Shown here in pieces: positions 1 to 5,159 of a stretch of DNA of 5,192 nt. Position 1 is the stretch's first letter, and each line of letters begins with the position of its first letter. This DNA is from Candidatus Rokuibacteriota bacterium. Its GTDB lineage: Bacteria > Methylomirabilota > Methylomirabilia > Rokubacteriales > JACPHL01. Where the stretch lies: positions 1 to 5,192 of the forward strand of contig JACPHL010000086.1 in assembly GCA_016188625.1 (NCBI GenBank), read 5' to 3'. The notes under the pieces are model-generated. The model saw only the letters and a program-made list of their open reading frames with translations, ran no database searches and was not told the origin of the DNA. The position numbers were made by a program, and so were the translations under genes.

Positions 1-18
1 AAGTTCGCCCGCCGCTAA
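1..18 (+). CDS. C-terminal end of an upstream gene (partial)
   Basis: Reading frame 1 gives Lys-Phe-Ala-Arg-Arg followed by TAA. The last base of that stop is the first base of the aminotransferase ATG (TAATG), a common arrangement for translationally coupled genes in one operon. Only five residues are present, so no function can be assigned. The basic end and the exact stop/start overlap are the only evidence, and the stop could be coincidental. Confidence 0.45.
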   Translation, partial: KFARR

Positions 19-1208
19 TGCTCGCCGAACGCGCCCGCCGCCTCGTCCCCTCCTCGACCCTCGCCATCACCGCGAAGGCGCGCGCCCTCCGGGCCCGCGG
101 GATCGACGTCATCAGCTTCGGGGCGGGGGAGCCCGACTTCGACACCCCCGAGCACATCAAGGCGGCGGCCGTCCGGGCCCTGCGGGACGGGCAGACCAAG
201 TACACCGACGCGGCCGGGATCGCCGAGCTTCGGGCCGCAGTCTGCCACAAGCTCCGGCGGGACGACGGCCTCGAGTACGAGCCGGGCCAGGTGGTCATCT
301 CCTGCGGGGCCAAGCACTCCCTCTACAACCTCGCCGCGGTCCTCTTCCAGGCCGGCGACGAGGTGCTGATCCCGTCGCCCTACTGGGTCAGCTACCCCGA
401 GCAGGTCCGCCTGGTGGACGCCACGCCGATCCCGGTCCCCACCGACGAGGGCGCGGGCTTCGCCCTCGACCCCGGGCGGCTGCGGGCGGCGGTGAACCCC
501 CGGACCCGGGCCGTGATCCTGAACAGCCCGAACAACCCCACGGGCGCGGTCTTCGCCCGGGAGGCCCTCGCGGCCGTGGTCGAGCTGGCCCTCGAGCGGA
601 ACCTCTGGGTCATCTCCGACGAGTGCTACGAGGCCCTGGCCTACGAGGGGCGGGTCCCGAGCGCGGCTGCCCTCGGCCCCGAGGCCAGGGCCCGGACCAT
701 CGTGGTGAACACCTGCTCCAAGGCCTACGCCATGACCGGCTGGCGGATCGGCTACGCCGCGGGGCCGGCCGAGGTCATCCGGGCGATGGCGGACTTCCAG
801 AGCCAGTGCACCTCGAACCCGTCCTCCATCGCCCAGTGGGCGGCGGTGGAGGCCCTCACCGGCCCCCAGGACGAGGTCGCCAAGATGGTCGGCGAGTTCG
901 ACCATCGTCGCCGGGCGATCGTCGAGGGGCTCAACCGGATCCCGGGCCTCTCCTGCGCCATGCCCCGGGGGGCCTTCTACGTCTTCCCCGAGGTCTCGGG
1001 GCTCTTCGGCCGGCGGTGGGGCGACCGGGCCCTCGGCGGCTCGGCCGACGTCGCCGCCTTCCTCCTCGAGGAGGCGCGGGTGGCCGTGGTCCCCGGGCTG
1101 GACTTCGGCTCCGACCGGCACATCCGCCTCTCCTACGCCACCGGCCTTCCGGCGATCCAGGAGGGGCTCGAGCGGATGGCGGCGGCCGTGGGGAGCCTCG
1201 CGGGATGA
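18..1208 (+). CDS. Pyridoxal-phosphate aminotransferase, aspartate aminotransferase subgroup Ib (possibly also prephenate)
   Basis: A cytosolic PLP enzyme of 396 residues, the normal length for fold-type I aspartate aminotransferases. It should transfer the amino group between aspartate and 2-oxoglutarate. Visible family marks are the N-terminal PSSTLAITAKA and GAGEPDFDTPEHIK (residues 11-48), SPYWVSYPE (120-128), NSPNNPTG (169-176, with Asn173 as cofactor contact), SDECYE (200-205, Asp201 and Tyr204), the Schiff-base Lys235 in NTCSKAYAMTGWR with phosphate-binding Arg243, and HIRLSYA (368-374, Arg370 for the substrate alpha-carboxylate). The sequence lines up with the Thermus-type enzyme from its first residues, which supports this ATG. 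Thr14 and Lys99 match positions tied to dicarboxylate or prephenate recognition in this subgroup, so a role in arogenate (Phe/Tyr) synthesis is possible. It overlaps both the upstream stop and the downstream start, so it sits inside an operon. The family call is firm; the substrate is inferred. Confidence 0.95.
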   Translation: MLAERARRLVPSSTLAITAKARALRARGIDVISFGAGEPDFDTPEHIKAAAVRALRDGQTKYTDAAGIAELRAAVCHKLRRDDGLEYEPGQVVISCGAKHSLYNLAAVLFQAGDEVLIPSPYWVSYPEQVRLVDATPIPVPTDEGAGFALDPGRLRAAVNPRTRAVILNSPNNPTGAVFAREALAAVVELALERNLWVISDECYEALAYEGRVPSAAALGPEARARTIVVNTCSKAYAMTGWRIGYAAGPAEVIRAMADFQSQCTSNPSSIAQWAAVEALTGPQDEVAKMVGEFDHRRRAIVEGLNRIPGLSCAMPRGAFYVFPEVSGLFGRRWGDRALGGSADVAAFLLEEARVAVVPGLDFGSDRHIRLSYATGLPAIQEGLERMAAAVGSLAG

Positions 1209-2230
1209 GCCCCGACCCGAGCTGGGAGGCTGCGGTCCGCCGGGCGGAGGCGGCCCGCGTCCTGTTCGTCATCGGCGAGACCGACACGGGCAAGACGAGC
1301 TTCACGACCTACCTGGCCGGGGGGCTGGCGAGCCGCGGCTTCTCGGTCGCGGTGGTGGACGCCGACCTCGGGCAGTCCGCCATCGGCCCGCCGACCACCG
1401 TGGGGCTCGGGCGGATCACCGGTCCGGTGGAGCGGCTCGGCGAGGCCGAGGTGGTCGGCCTCTTCTTCGTCGGCGCCACCTCCCCGCAGGGTCACCTCCT
1501 CCCCACCGTCATCGGGACCAAGAAGCTCGTCGAGAAGGCCCTCCGGCTCGGCTTCGACAAGGTGGTGGTGGACACCAGCGGCCTGATCCACGGCGAGCTG
1601 GGGCGGCTGCTCAAGCAGCACAAGATCGAGGCGGTCGGCCCCGACCTCGTCCTCTGCCTCCAGCGGAACGGCGAGTGCGAGCACATCCTCCGCCCCTATC
1701 TGGCGGGGGCGCGGCCGGAGGTCCTGCGCCTGGCCTCGGCCGGGACCAGCCGACGCCGGTCCCAGGAGGAGCGGCGCCAGCACCGGGAGCGGAGTCTCCA
1801 GGCGTATTTTCACGACGCCAAGCCGGTCCAGCTCGACCTCGGCCGGGTCGCCCTCTGCCAGCCGGCCCTCTACGTGGGGCAGGCCCTCTCCCCGCGGCAG
1901 CTCGAGGAGCTGGCCGGGTCCATCGACGACATGGTCCTCTGGGCCGAGCGGCGGGGGAACGAGCTGGTCCTGGTGACCCCCGACCCGTTGCGGGAGGGCC
2001 AGCTCCGCCAGCTCGGCCGGCGCCACGAGGACGCCGTGGTGACCAACTACTCCCTGGACGACTTCCAGGGGGCCCTGGCGGGCCTCGAGGACGCGGAGCG
2101 CGAGACCCTGGGGCTCGGGATCGTGCGGGGCGTGGACTTCGGCCAGAAGGTCCTGACCGTGGAGACCCCGGTCCCCGAAGCGGCAGGCGCCGCCGTCCGG
2201 ATCGGGCGCCACAAGATCCGCCCGGGATAG
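1205..2230 (+). CDS. Clp1-type P-loop protein, putative polynucleotide 5'-hydroxyl kinase
   Basis: 341 residues. Walker A is GETDTGKT (24-31, Lys30 and Thr31). It is followed by the Clp1-specific VVDADLGQSAIGPPTTVGLG (50-69), where Asp54 fits the catalytic aspartate and Gly56-Gln57 the invariant GQ. The Walker B region is VVVDTSGLIHG (120-130). An arginine-rich stretch at 183-196 lies where the lid of Clp1 kinases sits. The C-terminal part (about 206-341) ends in a small beta-rich segment, GLGIVRGVDFGQKVLTVETP (303-322), seen in archaeal and bacterial Clp1-like proteins. It lacks the N-terminal beta-domain of eukaryotic Clp1; only about 23 residues precede Walker A. In eukaryotes and archaea this family phosphorylates 5'-OH ends of RNA or DNA with ATP/GTP; the bacterial role is not established. 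The frame is open well upstream of 1205, but homology starts just after this ATG, which overlaps the aminotransferase stop (ATGA) and has GGGGAG at 1190-1195. A generic nucleotide-binding function is the alternative. Confidence 0.88.
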   Translation: MSPDPSWEAAVRRAEAARVLFVIGETDTGKTSFTTYLAGGLASRGFSVAVVDADLGQSAIGPPTTVGLGRITGPVERLGEAEVVGLFFVGATSPQGHLLPTVIGTKKLVEKALRLGFDKVVVDTSGLIHGELGRLLKQHKIEAVGPDLVLCLQRNGECEHILRPYLAGARPEVLRLASAGTSRRRSQEERRQHRERSLQAYFHDAKPVQLDLGRVALCQPALYVGQALSPRQLEELAGSIDDMVLWAERRGNELVLVTPDPLREGQLRQLGRRHEDAVVTNYSLDDFQGALAGLEDAERETLGLGIVRGVDFGQKVLTVETPVPEAAGAAVRIGRHKIRPG

Positions 2231-2269: not shown

Positions 2270-3046
2270 GTGAGCGCGCTCGACTCGCCGCTGACCTACC
2301 GGGCGATCGCGCTGGCCCTGATCGTCGCCACGGCCCTGGCCTGGGTGGGGATCGTCTCCTGGACTCCGGGCTCGGCGGCGATGGACGACATGGCGATGGC
2401 CCCGCTCTCGAGCGTCGCGGCCCTCGGCCTCTTCCTCCTGATGTGGACGATCATGATGGTCGCCATGATGTTCCCGGCCGCGCTGCCGATGGTCCTCATC
2501 TTCCACCGGGTCTCGAACGACCGCCGCCCAAAGGGCCTGGCCGCTGTCCCGACCTGGGTCTTCGTCGCCGGCTACCTCGCCGTGTGGGCCGGCTTCGGGG
2601 TGGCGTTCTACGGGGTCGAGTGGGGGATCCGCTGGCTGACCGGATCCGGGATGGCGCGGTTCCCCGCCACGGTCGCGGCCCTCGCCTTCCTCGCGGCAGG
2701 GGTCTATCAGCTCACCCCGCTCAAGACGGTCTGCCTCCAGCACTGCCGCTCCCCGATGGGGTTCGTGATGTTCCACTGGCGCGAGGGAACGGCGGGGGCC
2801 GTCGGGATGGGGGTGATCCACGGGGCCTACTGTCTCGGCTGCTGCTGGGCCCTCATGGTGATCCTGCTCGGGGTGGGGGTGATGAACCTCGCCTGGATCG
2901 GGCTCCTCACCCTCCTCATCTTCGTGGAGAAGGTCCTCCCCGCCGGAGCCCTCGTCGGCCGGGTGGTCGGCGGCGGCCTGATTGCCCTCGGGCTTCTCGC
3001 CCTGGCCCGGCCGTCCCTGCTCCCCCTCCTGACCCTCGGTCTCTGA
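2270..3046 (+). CDS. DUF2182 family multi-pass membrane protein, predicted metal-binding
   Basis: 258 residues in the inner membrane with about six or seven hydrophobic segments (near 11-31, 47-78, 94-117, 131-148, 174-207, 208-222 and 232-256). It carries the DUF2182 (COG5486) signature: MWTIMMVAMMFPAALPM (58-74), YQLTPLKTVCLQHCRSPMGF (146-165, Cys155 and Cys159) and IHGAYCLGCCWALM (183-196, His184, Cys188, Cys191, Cys192), then EK at 220-221. The conserved Cys, His and Met residues led to the 'metal-binding membrane protein' label, but no transport or enzymatic activity is established. There is a Met-rich loop (Met38, 41, 43). GTG at 2270 is the only usable start between the in-frame TAG at 2228-2230 that ends the preceding gene and the first membrane segment; only a weak G-rich stretch (2259-2267) serves as ribosome site. 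It lies 39 bases after the Clp1-like gene and converges on the transporter gene. The DUF1326 partner often found beside this family is absent here. Confidence 0.9.
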   Translation: MSALDSPLTYRAIALALIVATALAWVGIVSWTPGSAAMDDMAMAPLSSVAALGLFLLMWTIMMVAMMFPAALPMVLIFHRVSNDRRPKGLAAVPTWVFVAGYLAVWAGFGVAFYGVEWGIRWLTGSGMARFPATVAALAFLAAGVYQLTPLKTVCLQHCRSPMGFVMFHWREGTAGAVGMGVIHGAYCLGCCWALMVILLGVGVMNLAWIGLLTLLIFVEKVLPAGALVGRVVGGGLIALGLLALARPSLLPLLTLGL

Positions 3047-3052
3047 GCGATT

Positions 3053-3070
3053 CGGGGGCTCAGGCCCCCG
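3053..3070. terminator. GC hairpin between convergent genes, candidate bidirectional terminator
   Basis: A perfect 7-bp inverted repeat, CGGGGGC - TCAG - GCCCCCG, with a 4-base loop lies just after the DUF2182 stop (3044-3046). It covers the TGA of the transporter gene on the other strand (3060-3062), which falls in the loop. Two G-U wobbles could extend it on the + strand transcript. Neither side has a U-run, so it is not a classical intrinsic terminator. Its position between converging genes still favours a role in ending or protecting both transcripts. Confidence 0.55.
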
Positions 3071-4274
3071 GGTGAATCTCCACCCCGCCCGGGGCGCCGA
3101 TGGACGCGACCCTGAGCCGCGGGCAGAGCGGGAGGGTCCCAAGCGCCATCACGCCGACGACCGCCAGGGCGAACGTCACGCCGGCCCAGTCGCCGAGGAG
3201 CCCGTAGAGCGGCGGGGCGACGGCCGCCGCGCCAACCCCCATCGTGTAGAAGAGCCCGTAGGCCCGGGCGCGCCGCTCCGGCGCGACCAGGTCCGCGACG
3301 CTCCCGTAGAGAACCGAGGAGGTCCCGTTGAGCGCGATCCCGAGGAAAGGGAGGAGGACCAGCGCCGGGGTGAGGGGGAGCGGCAGGAGGAGGAAGATCC
3401 CGGCCCCGGTCGCCAGTTCGGTCAGGACCACGGTCCGCACGACGCCCACCCGCTCGGCGATGACCCCGCAGACGAACTTGCCGACCGCCCCACCGCCGAA
3501 GACGAGCGCCAGGGCCAGGCCCACCGACTGGACCGGAGCGCCCTTGGCCATGAGGAGAAAGGGGAGGAACGTCAGGAGCGCGTAACGGGTCGCGGTGTCC
3601 AGGACCGCGATGGCGGCCAGGGCTGAGAAGCCGCGGCTGTCGAGGATCCCCCACCTCCCGGCCGGCGCGACCGCCGGCGCTCCCGCCGCCCCGCCCTCGC
3701 GCCCTCCGACGATCCGACCCAGGAGGACGAAGATCACGACCGTCGCCAGGAGCCCGAGAACCCCATACCCCCGCGTCGCCCACCGCCACCCCGCCCACGC
3801 CGCCACGAGCGCCGCGACCGCGGGGACCGTGACCTTCCCCAGGTCACCGGCGAAGTTGTAGGTCCCGAGCGCCACGCGGCGCGGCCCGGTCTCGTACCCC
3901 TTGGAGACCAGCGAGGAGGAGAGCGGGTGCTGGACCCCCGAGCCGAGCCCGGCCAGGAGGAGCAGGCCGAGGAGCGCCCCGAACCCTCCGGCTGTCCCCA
4001 GGAGGAAGTACCCCGTCGCCACGAGGGCCGTCCCCGCGGCGAGGAGGTCACGCTCGCCCCACCGCTCGGCCAGGAGCCCCGCCGGGGTCTGGAAGCCGGC
4101 CATCCCCCCCATGTAGGCCATCTTCAGGAGCCCGACCTGGGTGAGGGAGAGGCGGAAGTCACCCGCGAGGAGCGGGAAGAGGACGTAGAGGGTGTCGGAG
4201 AAGCCGTCGTGGAGGAAGTGGATGGCCGAGCAGGCGGCCAGGGTCGCCGCCGCGCGCCGGCGCGGAGGGCTCAT
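3060..4274 (-). CDS. MFS transporter, fosmidomycin-resistance-like branch
   Basis: 404 residues, the usual length for a 12-helix major facilitator. The start reads HFLHDGFSDTLYVLFPLLA (19-37) in helix 1, as in FsrA-like permeases. The motif A loop between helices 2 and 3 is GLLAERWGERDLL (66-78). GSGVQHPLSSSLVSKGY (111-127) and TYNFAGDLGKV (138-148) are typical of this branch. A polar, Gly/Ala-rich central loop (about 188-208) separates the two six-helix halves, and the second half repeats a motif A-like loop near KFVCGVIAERVG (266-277). It acts in the inner membrane, probably as a proton-coupled importer or exporter; the substrate cannot be read from sequence. It lies downstream of the CoA-transferase genes on the same strand with a 111-base gap, so an organic acid used by that enzyme is one plausible substrate (inference). 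The ATG is preceded by AAGGTGG at close spacing. The C-terminal tail after about residue 385 is short and cytosolic. Confidence 0.92.
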   Translation of the reverse strand: MSPPRRRAAATLAACSAIHFLHDGFSDTLYVLFPLLAGDFRLSLTQVGLLKMAYMGGMAGFQTPAGLLAERWGERDLLAAGTALVATGYFLLGTAGGFGALLGLLLLAGLGSGVQHPLSSSLVSKGYETGPRRVALGTYNFAGDLGKVTVPAVAALVAAWAGWRWATRGYGVLGLLATVVIFVLLGRIVGGREGGAAGAPAVAPAGRWGILDSRGFSALAAIAVLDTATRYALLTFLPFLLMAKGAPVQSVGLALALVFGGGAVGKFVCGVIAERVGVVRTVVLTELATGAGIFLLLPLPLTPALVLLPFLGIALNGTSSVLYGSVADLVAPERRARAYGLFYTMGVGAAAVAPPLYGLLGDWAGVTFALAVVGVMALGTLPLCPRLRVASIGAPGGVEIHPGA

Positions 4275-4385: not shown

Positions 4386-5159
4386 TCACGCCGCCGAGCG
4401 GGTCCAGAACCCCTCGGGGTCCAGGCCCCGGATGATCTCGAGCTCCTCCGCCGAGGGCCCGGGGACCTCGTGGATGTCGGAGAGTACGCGGAGCGGCCAG
4501 CCGGTCTCCCGCCGGATCGTCTCCACCCCGGCCCCGGGGAAGGAGGCGGCCAGGTACGCCTCGCGGCTGTCGGGGTCGAAGCGCAGGACGCCCAGGGTCG
4601 TGATGATGGCGGCCGGCCCGCCGCCGGGGAGCCCGACCCGACGCCGCCAGTCGCCGCCCTCCCCGTACCCCGGCGAGGTGACGTAGTCCACGCGCTCGCG
4701 GAAGCGGTGGCGCTCGTGGGGGATGATGATCACGTGGCGCCGGGCCAGAGACGCGATGTCCGCCGCCCCGCCGCTCCCCGGCAGCCTGACCCGCGGCCGG
4801 CGGGGGTCGCCGATATAGGAGGTGTTGAGGTTGCCGAAGCGGTCCACCTCCGCCCCCCCGATGAACCCCAGGTCCACGCACCCCTGCCCGAGGAGGGCCA
4901 TGATCTCGGCGGTCCCGCCCGAGAAGACCGCCCCGAGGACGTTGGGCGGGTCGCTCATGGTGTAGAGCAGCTCGGCGGCCGGCGTCTCCCGGATGATCCC
5001 GTTCTCGAAGAGCCCGATCGCCCCCGGGGCGTGGGTGCGCTTGGCCAGGGCGAAGGCCAGCAGGGGGAGGCGCATCCCCACGAAGACGACGTCGCGGTCG
5101 CGGATCTCCCGGGCCGCGACGACCACCATCAGCTCGCGCTCGGTGTACTCCACGCCCAT
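4386..5159 (-). CDS. CoA-transferase beta subunit, glutaconate CoA-transferase (GctB) type
   Basis: 257 residues, close to the roughly 266 of Acidaminococcus GctB, with which it aligns nearly end to end. Family I CoA-transferases work as alpha/beta complexes in the cytosol and move CoA between carboxylic acids through a glutamyl-CoA thioester. Visible motifs are GMRLPLLAFALAKRTHAP (28-45), LFENGII (50-56), in which Glu52 aligns with the catalytic Glu54 of GctB, FIGGAEVDRFGNLNTSYIGD (99-118), GSGGAADIA (128-136), and HERHRFRERVDYVTSPGY (148-165). The retained Glu argues against the related ring-cleaving hydrolase IpdB, which lacks it. The true acid substrate (glutaconate, a ring-cleavage product, or another dicarboxylate) cannot be told. 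The ATG lies three bases after the stop of the preceding gene with no clear ribosome site, suggesting coupling to an alpha-subunit gene. Confidence 0.93.
   Translation of the reverse strand: MGVEYTERELMVVVAAREIRDRDVVFVGMRLPLLAFALAKRTHAPGAIGLFENGIIRETPAAELLYTMSDPPNVLGAVFSGGTAEIMALLGQGCVDLGFIGGAEVDRFGNLNTSYIGDPRRPRVRLPGSGGAADIASLARRHVIIIPHERHRFRERVDYVTSPGYGEGGDWRRRVGLPGGGPAAIITTLGVLRFDPDSREAYLAASFPGAGVETIRRETGWPLRVLSDIHEVPGPSAEELEIIRGLDPEGFWTRSAA

Follow-up and report, generated by a model that had tools for sequence, protein, structure and literature searches.

An apparently intact bacterial member of the Clp1 family, a probable polynucleotide 5′-hydroxyl kinase, encoded behind an aminotransferase gene in one bacterial order

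The window, by which we mean the whole stretch of DNA that was analysed, is one complete contig of 5,192 bases and begins at an aminotransferase gene. It belongs to a genome of Rokubacteria type, with Candidatus Rokubacteria / Rokuibacteriota as the nearest named relatives. The gene under study follows directly. The features on which the argument depends are given below, with conservation referring to the relatives described further on.

18..1208, plus strand: class I/II (aspartate-type) PLP aminotransferase, 396 aa, directly upstream of the Clp1 gene
1205..2230, plus strand: probable Clp1-family polynucleotide 5′-hydroxyl kinase gene, 341 aa, with the ATG at 1205 and the stop codon at 2228-2230
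1274..1297, plus strand: Walker A motif (P-loop) GETDTGKT, residues 24-31; G24, G29 and K30 invariant
1358..1375, plus strand: Walker B-type motif DADLGQ, residues 52-57; D52, D54, G56 and Q57 invariant
1571..1585, plus strand: clasp-equivalent DTSGL, residues 123-127; the Trp of the clasp [TSL]xGW is replaced by Leu
1757..1786, plus strand: lid RxxxxRxxxR (R185, R190, R194); R190 and R194 invariant, R185 at least 90% conserved
1814..2227, plus strand: C-terminal domain, residues 204-341, a Clp1-type beta barrel with an inserted alpha-beta module
1880..2065, plus strand: the inserted alpha-beta module, residues about 226-287, weakly KH-like

The reading frame lies where the preliminary description had placed it, with its start overlapping the aminotransferase stop: the TGA of the aminotransferase frame (1206-1208) and the ATG of the Clp1 gene share a 4-nt overlap, ATGA. 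The upstream protein matches the aminotransferase model PF00155 with 251 bits, and its best NCBIfam model is aspartate transaminase at 417 bits, which is under the equivalog cut-off of 617. On the 3′ side of the Clp1 gene, a PpoB2-type protein (PF09948, 208 bits) is encoded at 2270-3046 (+), a position that is occupied by a coxG-like gene in most relatives in the order. An MFS transporter gene (3060-4274, -) and a gene for a CoA-transferase subunit (4386-5159, -) lie beyond it; homologues of both are found downstream of Clp1 at locus L003.

The search against the Pfam model CLP1_P (PF16575) gave the 341-aa protein 122.5 bits (E 2.5e-35) over 187 of 188 positions. Because the cut-off of this model is 26.6, a chance match is excluded, and the membership in the Clp1 family that had been proposed from the letters alone is confirmed. 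The remaining P-loop families in Pfam all stayed under their cut-offs, and no NCBIfam model exceeded its own cut-off for this protein. Orthologues that are 70-75% identical align along its full length, and a profile search of the PDB with the alignment of 31 relatives returned human CLP1 (4e-17) and NOL9 (9e-16) as the top two entries. The window gene appears intact, belongs to a known family and is ordinary as a protein. As to enzyme class, we put the probability that it encodes a prokaryotic Clp1-family polynucleotide 5′-hydroxyl kinase at roughly four in five.

Conservation was read from an alignment of 31 relatives found in this search, which are 28-75% identical to the window protein. All of them share G24, G29, K30, D52, D54, G56, Q57, R190 and R194, and conservation is at least 90% at D27, T31, T124, G126, R185 and R191. 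A loss of K30 or D54 in homologues, which had been named as grounds for doubt, is thus not seen in this set. Both the Walker A pattern GxxxxGK[ST] and the Walker B-type pattern [DE]hhQ (D54-L-G-Q57) are present in the window protein, and [DE]xDxGQ is present in 83 of 83 bacterial homologues. The Arg-rich lid comprises residues 183-196; its RxxxxR element, R185-S-Q-E-E-R190, aligns with the human Clp1 lid RSKDFRRECRDERIREYF in the profile search of the PDB. The GETDTGKT, DADLGQ and lid motifs that had been reported are therefore all in place and, judged from sequence, the catalytic residues appear to be intact, with invariance in the 31 relatives. The clasp differs. This motif, [TSL]xGW, serves in RNA binding; it characterises active members, and the family model does not require it for membership. 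The window protein retains T124-S-G126 and has Leu127 in place of the Trp; 59 of the 83 bacterial homologues contain the clasp pattern, with Leu at this place in 42, Phe in 12 and Trp in none. The active Clp1 of Thermus scotoductus (Ts-Clp1) is said to keep the clasp motif, and it too differs from the eukaryotic enzymes in a motif, that of the lid, yet is active (PMC6777427).

The AlphaFold2 model, built on the alignment of 31 relatives, has a mean pLDDT of 91.9 and a pTM of 0.89. Foldseek ranks 1-23 are exclusively Clp1, Grc3 or Nol9 (best E 7e-19), and these three are the only full-length structural matches of the model; the solved structures found did not include an archaeal Clp1. The better-fitting P-loop family that had been envisaged as an alternative was sought and did not emerge, the next family in Foldseek being the SRP-type GTPases at 2e-5. 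According to VIA, model residues 1-340 align with C. elegans Clp1 (Z 27.9, 277 residues, 3.1 A) and with human CLP1 (Z 27.9, 273 residues, 2.9 A). The eukaryotic N-terminal domain is absent, the protein starting about 18 residues ahead of the first strand of the kinase domain; the preliminary description was right on this point, and prokaryotic Clp1 proteins in general are without that domain (PMC6777427).

The same description had credited the protein with a beta-rich C-terminal domain of its own, and here the model argues otherwise. Modelled alone (pLDDT 91.9), the C-terminal domain finds Clp1 first in VIA, with Z 8.8 to residues 313-422 of human Clp1 (73 residues, 2.3 A), and this alignment spans the domain end to end. 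The barrel is formed by segments of about 204-225 and 290-340, and residues 295-327 give a weak Pfam match to NOL9_C. A unique domain is ruled out by the Clp1-first matches of both the whole model and the isolated domain; as modelled, this is the C-terminal domain fold of Clp1 plus an insertion. The insert (about 226-287) weakly matches an archaeal NusA KH domain with Z 6.9 and KH-CPSF with Z 6.5. We do not regard it as a KH domain, since Z 6.9 is too low to exclude a mere common arrangement and the model has only one helix at the expected site of the two-helix GxxG motif. The insert is gapped in many relatives, including shorter homologues of 265-298 aa, and its presence varies among close relatives.

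Clp1 kinases are usually viewed as tRNA- and rRNA-processing enzymes of eukaryotes and archaea. Bacterial Clp1 was surveyed in 2019, found in 0.9% of complete genomes and reported as very rare (PMC6777427). It is commoner in the groups sampled here: of 95 genomes from the window's phylum, 31 carry PF16575, always as a single copy, and in a second phylum, a deltaproteobacterial one, 62 of 297 genomes pass the cut-off of the model, about 45 of them with strong matches. Because Clp1 is missing from about two thirds of the genomes in the window's phylum, its role appears dispensable. In the tree, for which support values are those of FastTree, the 24 Clp1 sequences from the window's order group together in a clade of their own (0.90), and the remaining Clp1s of this phylum fall outside it. 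These 24 sequences form a clade (0.93) together with those of loci L119 and L111, and L119 also carries the protein that, outside the order, is the best relative of the window protein by BLAST. A single acquisition in the order followed by repeated loss would fit this distribution. A mobile or phage gene was considered and rejected, as searches of 72,556 plasmid and 50,697 phage records found no match, and viral models gave no convincing fold match to the window protein.

Throughout the order, Clp1 belongs to the string recG, a variable GNAT-like gene, rsmD, coaD, aminotransferase, Clp1 and usually a coxG-like gene; these names come from similarity and reading, with only the aminotransferase and Clp1 confirmed by Pfam. 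In all nine Clp1-less genomes of the order that were checked, the aminotransferase is followed by the coxG-like gene and Clp1 is cleanly missing. At the loci examined outside the order, an aminotransferase stands next to Clp1 in none, and the arrangement is therefore specific to one bacterial order. For these two reasons we consider the coupling to be positional, the aminotransferase most likely being an operon partner by position only, and we reject a functional link between the two. Of the coupling proposed at the outset, the 4-nt overlap thus stands and the shared function does not. Likewise, the statement that no repair gene lies nearby holds for the 5,192-bp contig but fails for the orthologous loci, in which recG is located 4-6 genes upstream.

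Other lineages place Clp1 among different genes. Immediately before it and on the same strand we found fpg (L036, L038 and L042), nfo, encoding endonuclease IV (L127 and L131, with gaps of 1 and -4), and uvrC (L132 and L133), as well as, in L112, the gene of an EndoQ-like PHP protein, its match to the database family TIGR00375 being under the cut-off. Immediate same-strand neighbours also include DUF72 genes (five loci) and a macro-domain protein (L111), and at position -3 there are a relative of spore photoproduct lyase (L099) and a LigD-type ligase (L100). At L119:3897-6904 (-), Clp1, archease and RtcB form a same-strand string in which Clp1 and archease overlap by 4 nt, apparently a bacterial RNA-repair operon with a 5′-kinase; among the loci fetched, this is the only one with Clp1 beside archease or rtcB. 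Two genes upstream of Clp1 in L109:2294-3629 (-) is a gene for a Tpt1/KptA-like RNA 2′-phosphotransferase (PF01885, 30.8 bits). Strings with DUF72, a TGS-domain GTPase and DUF763 recur around Clp1 (L098, L101, L103, L105, L112 and L123), some with an added EndoQ-like PHP protein, DUF488 and an SPL-like radical SAM protein, and possibly represent an uncharacterised repair cluster. At L115, L120, L172, L175, L177, L179 and L183, Clp1 is preceded by a CoA-transferase-like gene and shares an overlap (-8 nt) with a gene pair of the class II glutamine-amidotransferase-like kind. The varied neighbours, archease-RtcB, Fpg, Nfo, UvrC and EndoQ-like genes included, hint at nucleic-acid end healing, and they make the repair of RNA or DNA ends directly testable.

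No protein-spliced tRNA introns are known in bacteria. Therefore, the role of a bacterial Clp1 must be other than tRNA splicing. By the proposed mechanism, K30 and T31 of the P-loop would bind ATP and Mg, D54 of DADLGQ would act on the attacking 5′-OH and the metal, and R185 and R190 of the lid would close over the phosphates, so that the gamma-phosphate would pass to the 5′-OH end of a polynucleotide. RNA would be preferred and DNA weakly used, as the Thermus and Pyrococcus enzymes suggest. In the cell, the enzyme would heal 5′-OH ends left by RNA-cleaving enzymes or by damage; such ends would no longer be substrates for RtcB and would offer 5′-phosphates for sealing or decay, and the kinase would in this way compete with RtcB or back it up. 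Activity, substrate preference and role are here all deduced for the window protein. The genome carries RtcB (contig C310) and archease (C240) as well as Clp1 (C219). However, the two genes are near-universal in the window's phylum and do not track Clp1, and their co-occurrence with it is thus uninformative as evidence. The ATP-dependent RNA ligase PF09414 was not found in this genome, which is 84% complete, and only 2 of 95 genomes in the phylum have a match above the cut-off, which leads us to reject it as a partner for Clp1. The lack of this ligase for sealing 5′-phosphate RNA ends, the Leu in the clasp and the dispensability of Clp1 in the phylum count against the proposed explanation. In animals, phosphorylation by CLP1 removes the substrate of RtcB, and silencing of CLP1 in insect cells raises ligation (PMC13247085). 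From the chemistry of Ts-Clp1, the presence of RtcB and archease, these effects of CLP1 on ligation by RtcB and the Clp1, archease and RtcB string of L119, one of the closest relatives outside the order, we take RNA 5′-end healing, in competition with RtcB or as a backup to it, to be the most likely cellular role, although our confidence in it is less than even.

A broader proposal is that bacterial Clp1s might act as gatekeepers of the 5′ end, diverting RNA from RtcB and archease or preparing DNA ends, with the long forms reading RNA through the KH-like insert. We find this doubtful. If true, it would have left its traces in the genomes as the string of Clp1, archease and rtcB and as the repeated occurrence of Fpg, Nfo and UvrC beside Clp1.

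It is unlikely, in our opinion, that the protein is a DNA-repair kinase that phosphorylates 5′-OH DNA ends at strand breaks for DNA ligase. The position of Clp1 directly behind fpg, nfo, uvrC or the EndoQ-like gene in relatives, the recG gene in the string of the order, and the activity of Ts-Clp1 on ssDNA at high enzyme amounts and of archaeal Clp1 on DNA (PMC6777427) all speak for such a function. Across 30 contexts, 5 of 43 same-strand immediate neighbours are clear repair genes. However, the category was defined post hoc, after the neighbours had been inspected, and the crude binomial probability of 0.0005 to 0.03 hinges on the background assumed (1.5-4%). Moreover, 15 newly fetched loci of one class have no clear repair gene at +-1, and a DNA-repair neighbourhood is accordingly rejected as a general rule and stays a lead. 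The products of Fpg, Nfo, UvrC and EndoQ mostly carry 5′-phosphates already, which likewise argues against the need for such a kinase.

Far less probable is a repurposed P-loop enzyme acting on a small molecule, perhaps tied to the aminotransferase of the operon or to CoA metabolism. The operon with coaD and the aminotransferase in the order, the genes for a CoA-transferase, amidotransferase or nitroreductase beside Clp1 elsewhere, and the missing clasp Trp are compatible with it but lend it no positive support; the fold is that of Clp1/Grc3/Nol9 throughout, lid and C-terminal domain included, the neighbours differ between lineages, and the string is complete without Clp1 in the nine Clp1-less genomes. 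Least probable of all is a catalytically inactive adaptor that binds ATP and another protein, for which inactive yeast Clp1 is a precedent (PMC6777427) and the replaced clasp Trp a possible sign, since every catalytic and lid residue is kept and invariant across distant relatives, and the inactivity of yeast Clp1 arose from changes within its kinase domain (PMC6777427).

The Grc3/NOL9 pre-rRNA kinases have the same fold (Z 18-23) and a C-terminal region that residues 295-327 weakly resemble, but the window protein is much shorter, and no Las1-type nuclease partner was noticed among its neighbours. C. elegans and human Clp1 (4ohy, 8hmy) are the best structural match and share the lid RxxxxR and DxGQ, whereas the window protein is about 20% identical to them, is without their N-terminal domain, and has the clasp Leu for Trp and the insert in the C-terminal domain. 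The family is known and includes one characterised bacterial enzyme, Ts-Clp1 (UniProt E8PQM6). The preliminary description had presented the purpose of bacterial Clp1 as unclear, which is too strong if taken biochemically, because Ts-Clp1 has been assayed: it is an RNA-preferring 5′-OH kinase with a Km(ATP) of 2.5 uM that also phosphorylates ssDNA when more enzyme is used, and the archaeal Clp1 accepts DNA too (PMC6777427). Like the window protein, Ts-Clp1 is bacterial and has a short N-terminus and a CLP1_P domain with Walker A and B. It is, however, of about 27 kDa and described as having no N- or C-terminal domain (PMC6777427), whereas the window protein, at 341 aa, has a Clp1-type C-terminal domain with an insert. 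It also retains the lid RxxxxR, for which conservation is poorer in Ts-Clp1. Archaeal PH0197 of Pyrococcus horikoshii is alike, by its description, in the layout of a kinase domain followed by a C-terminal domain and likewise in lacking the eukaryotic N-terminal domain (PMC6777427).
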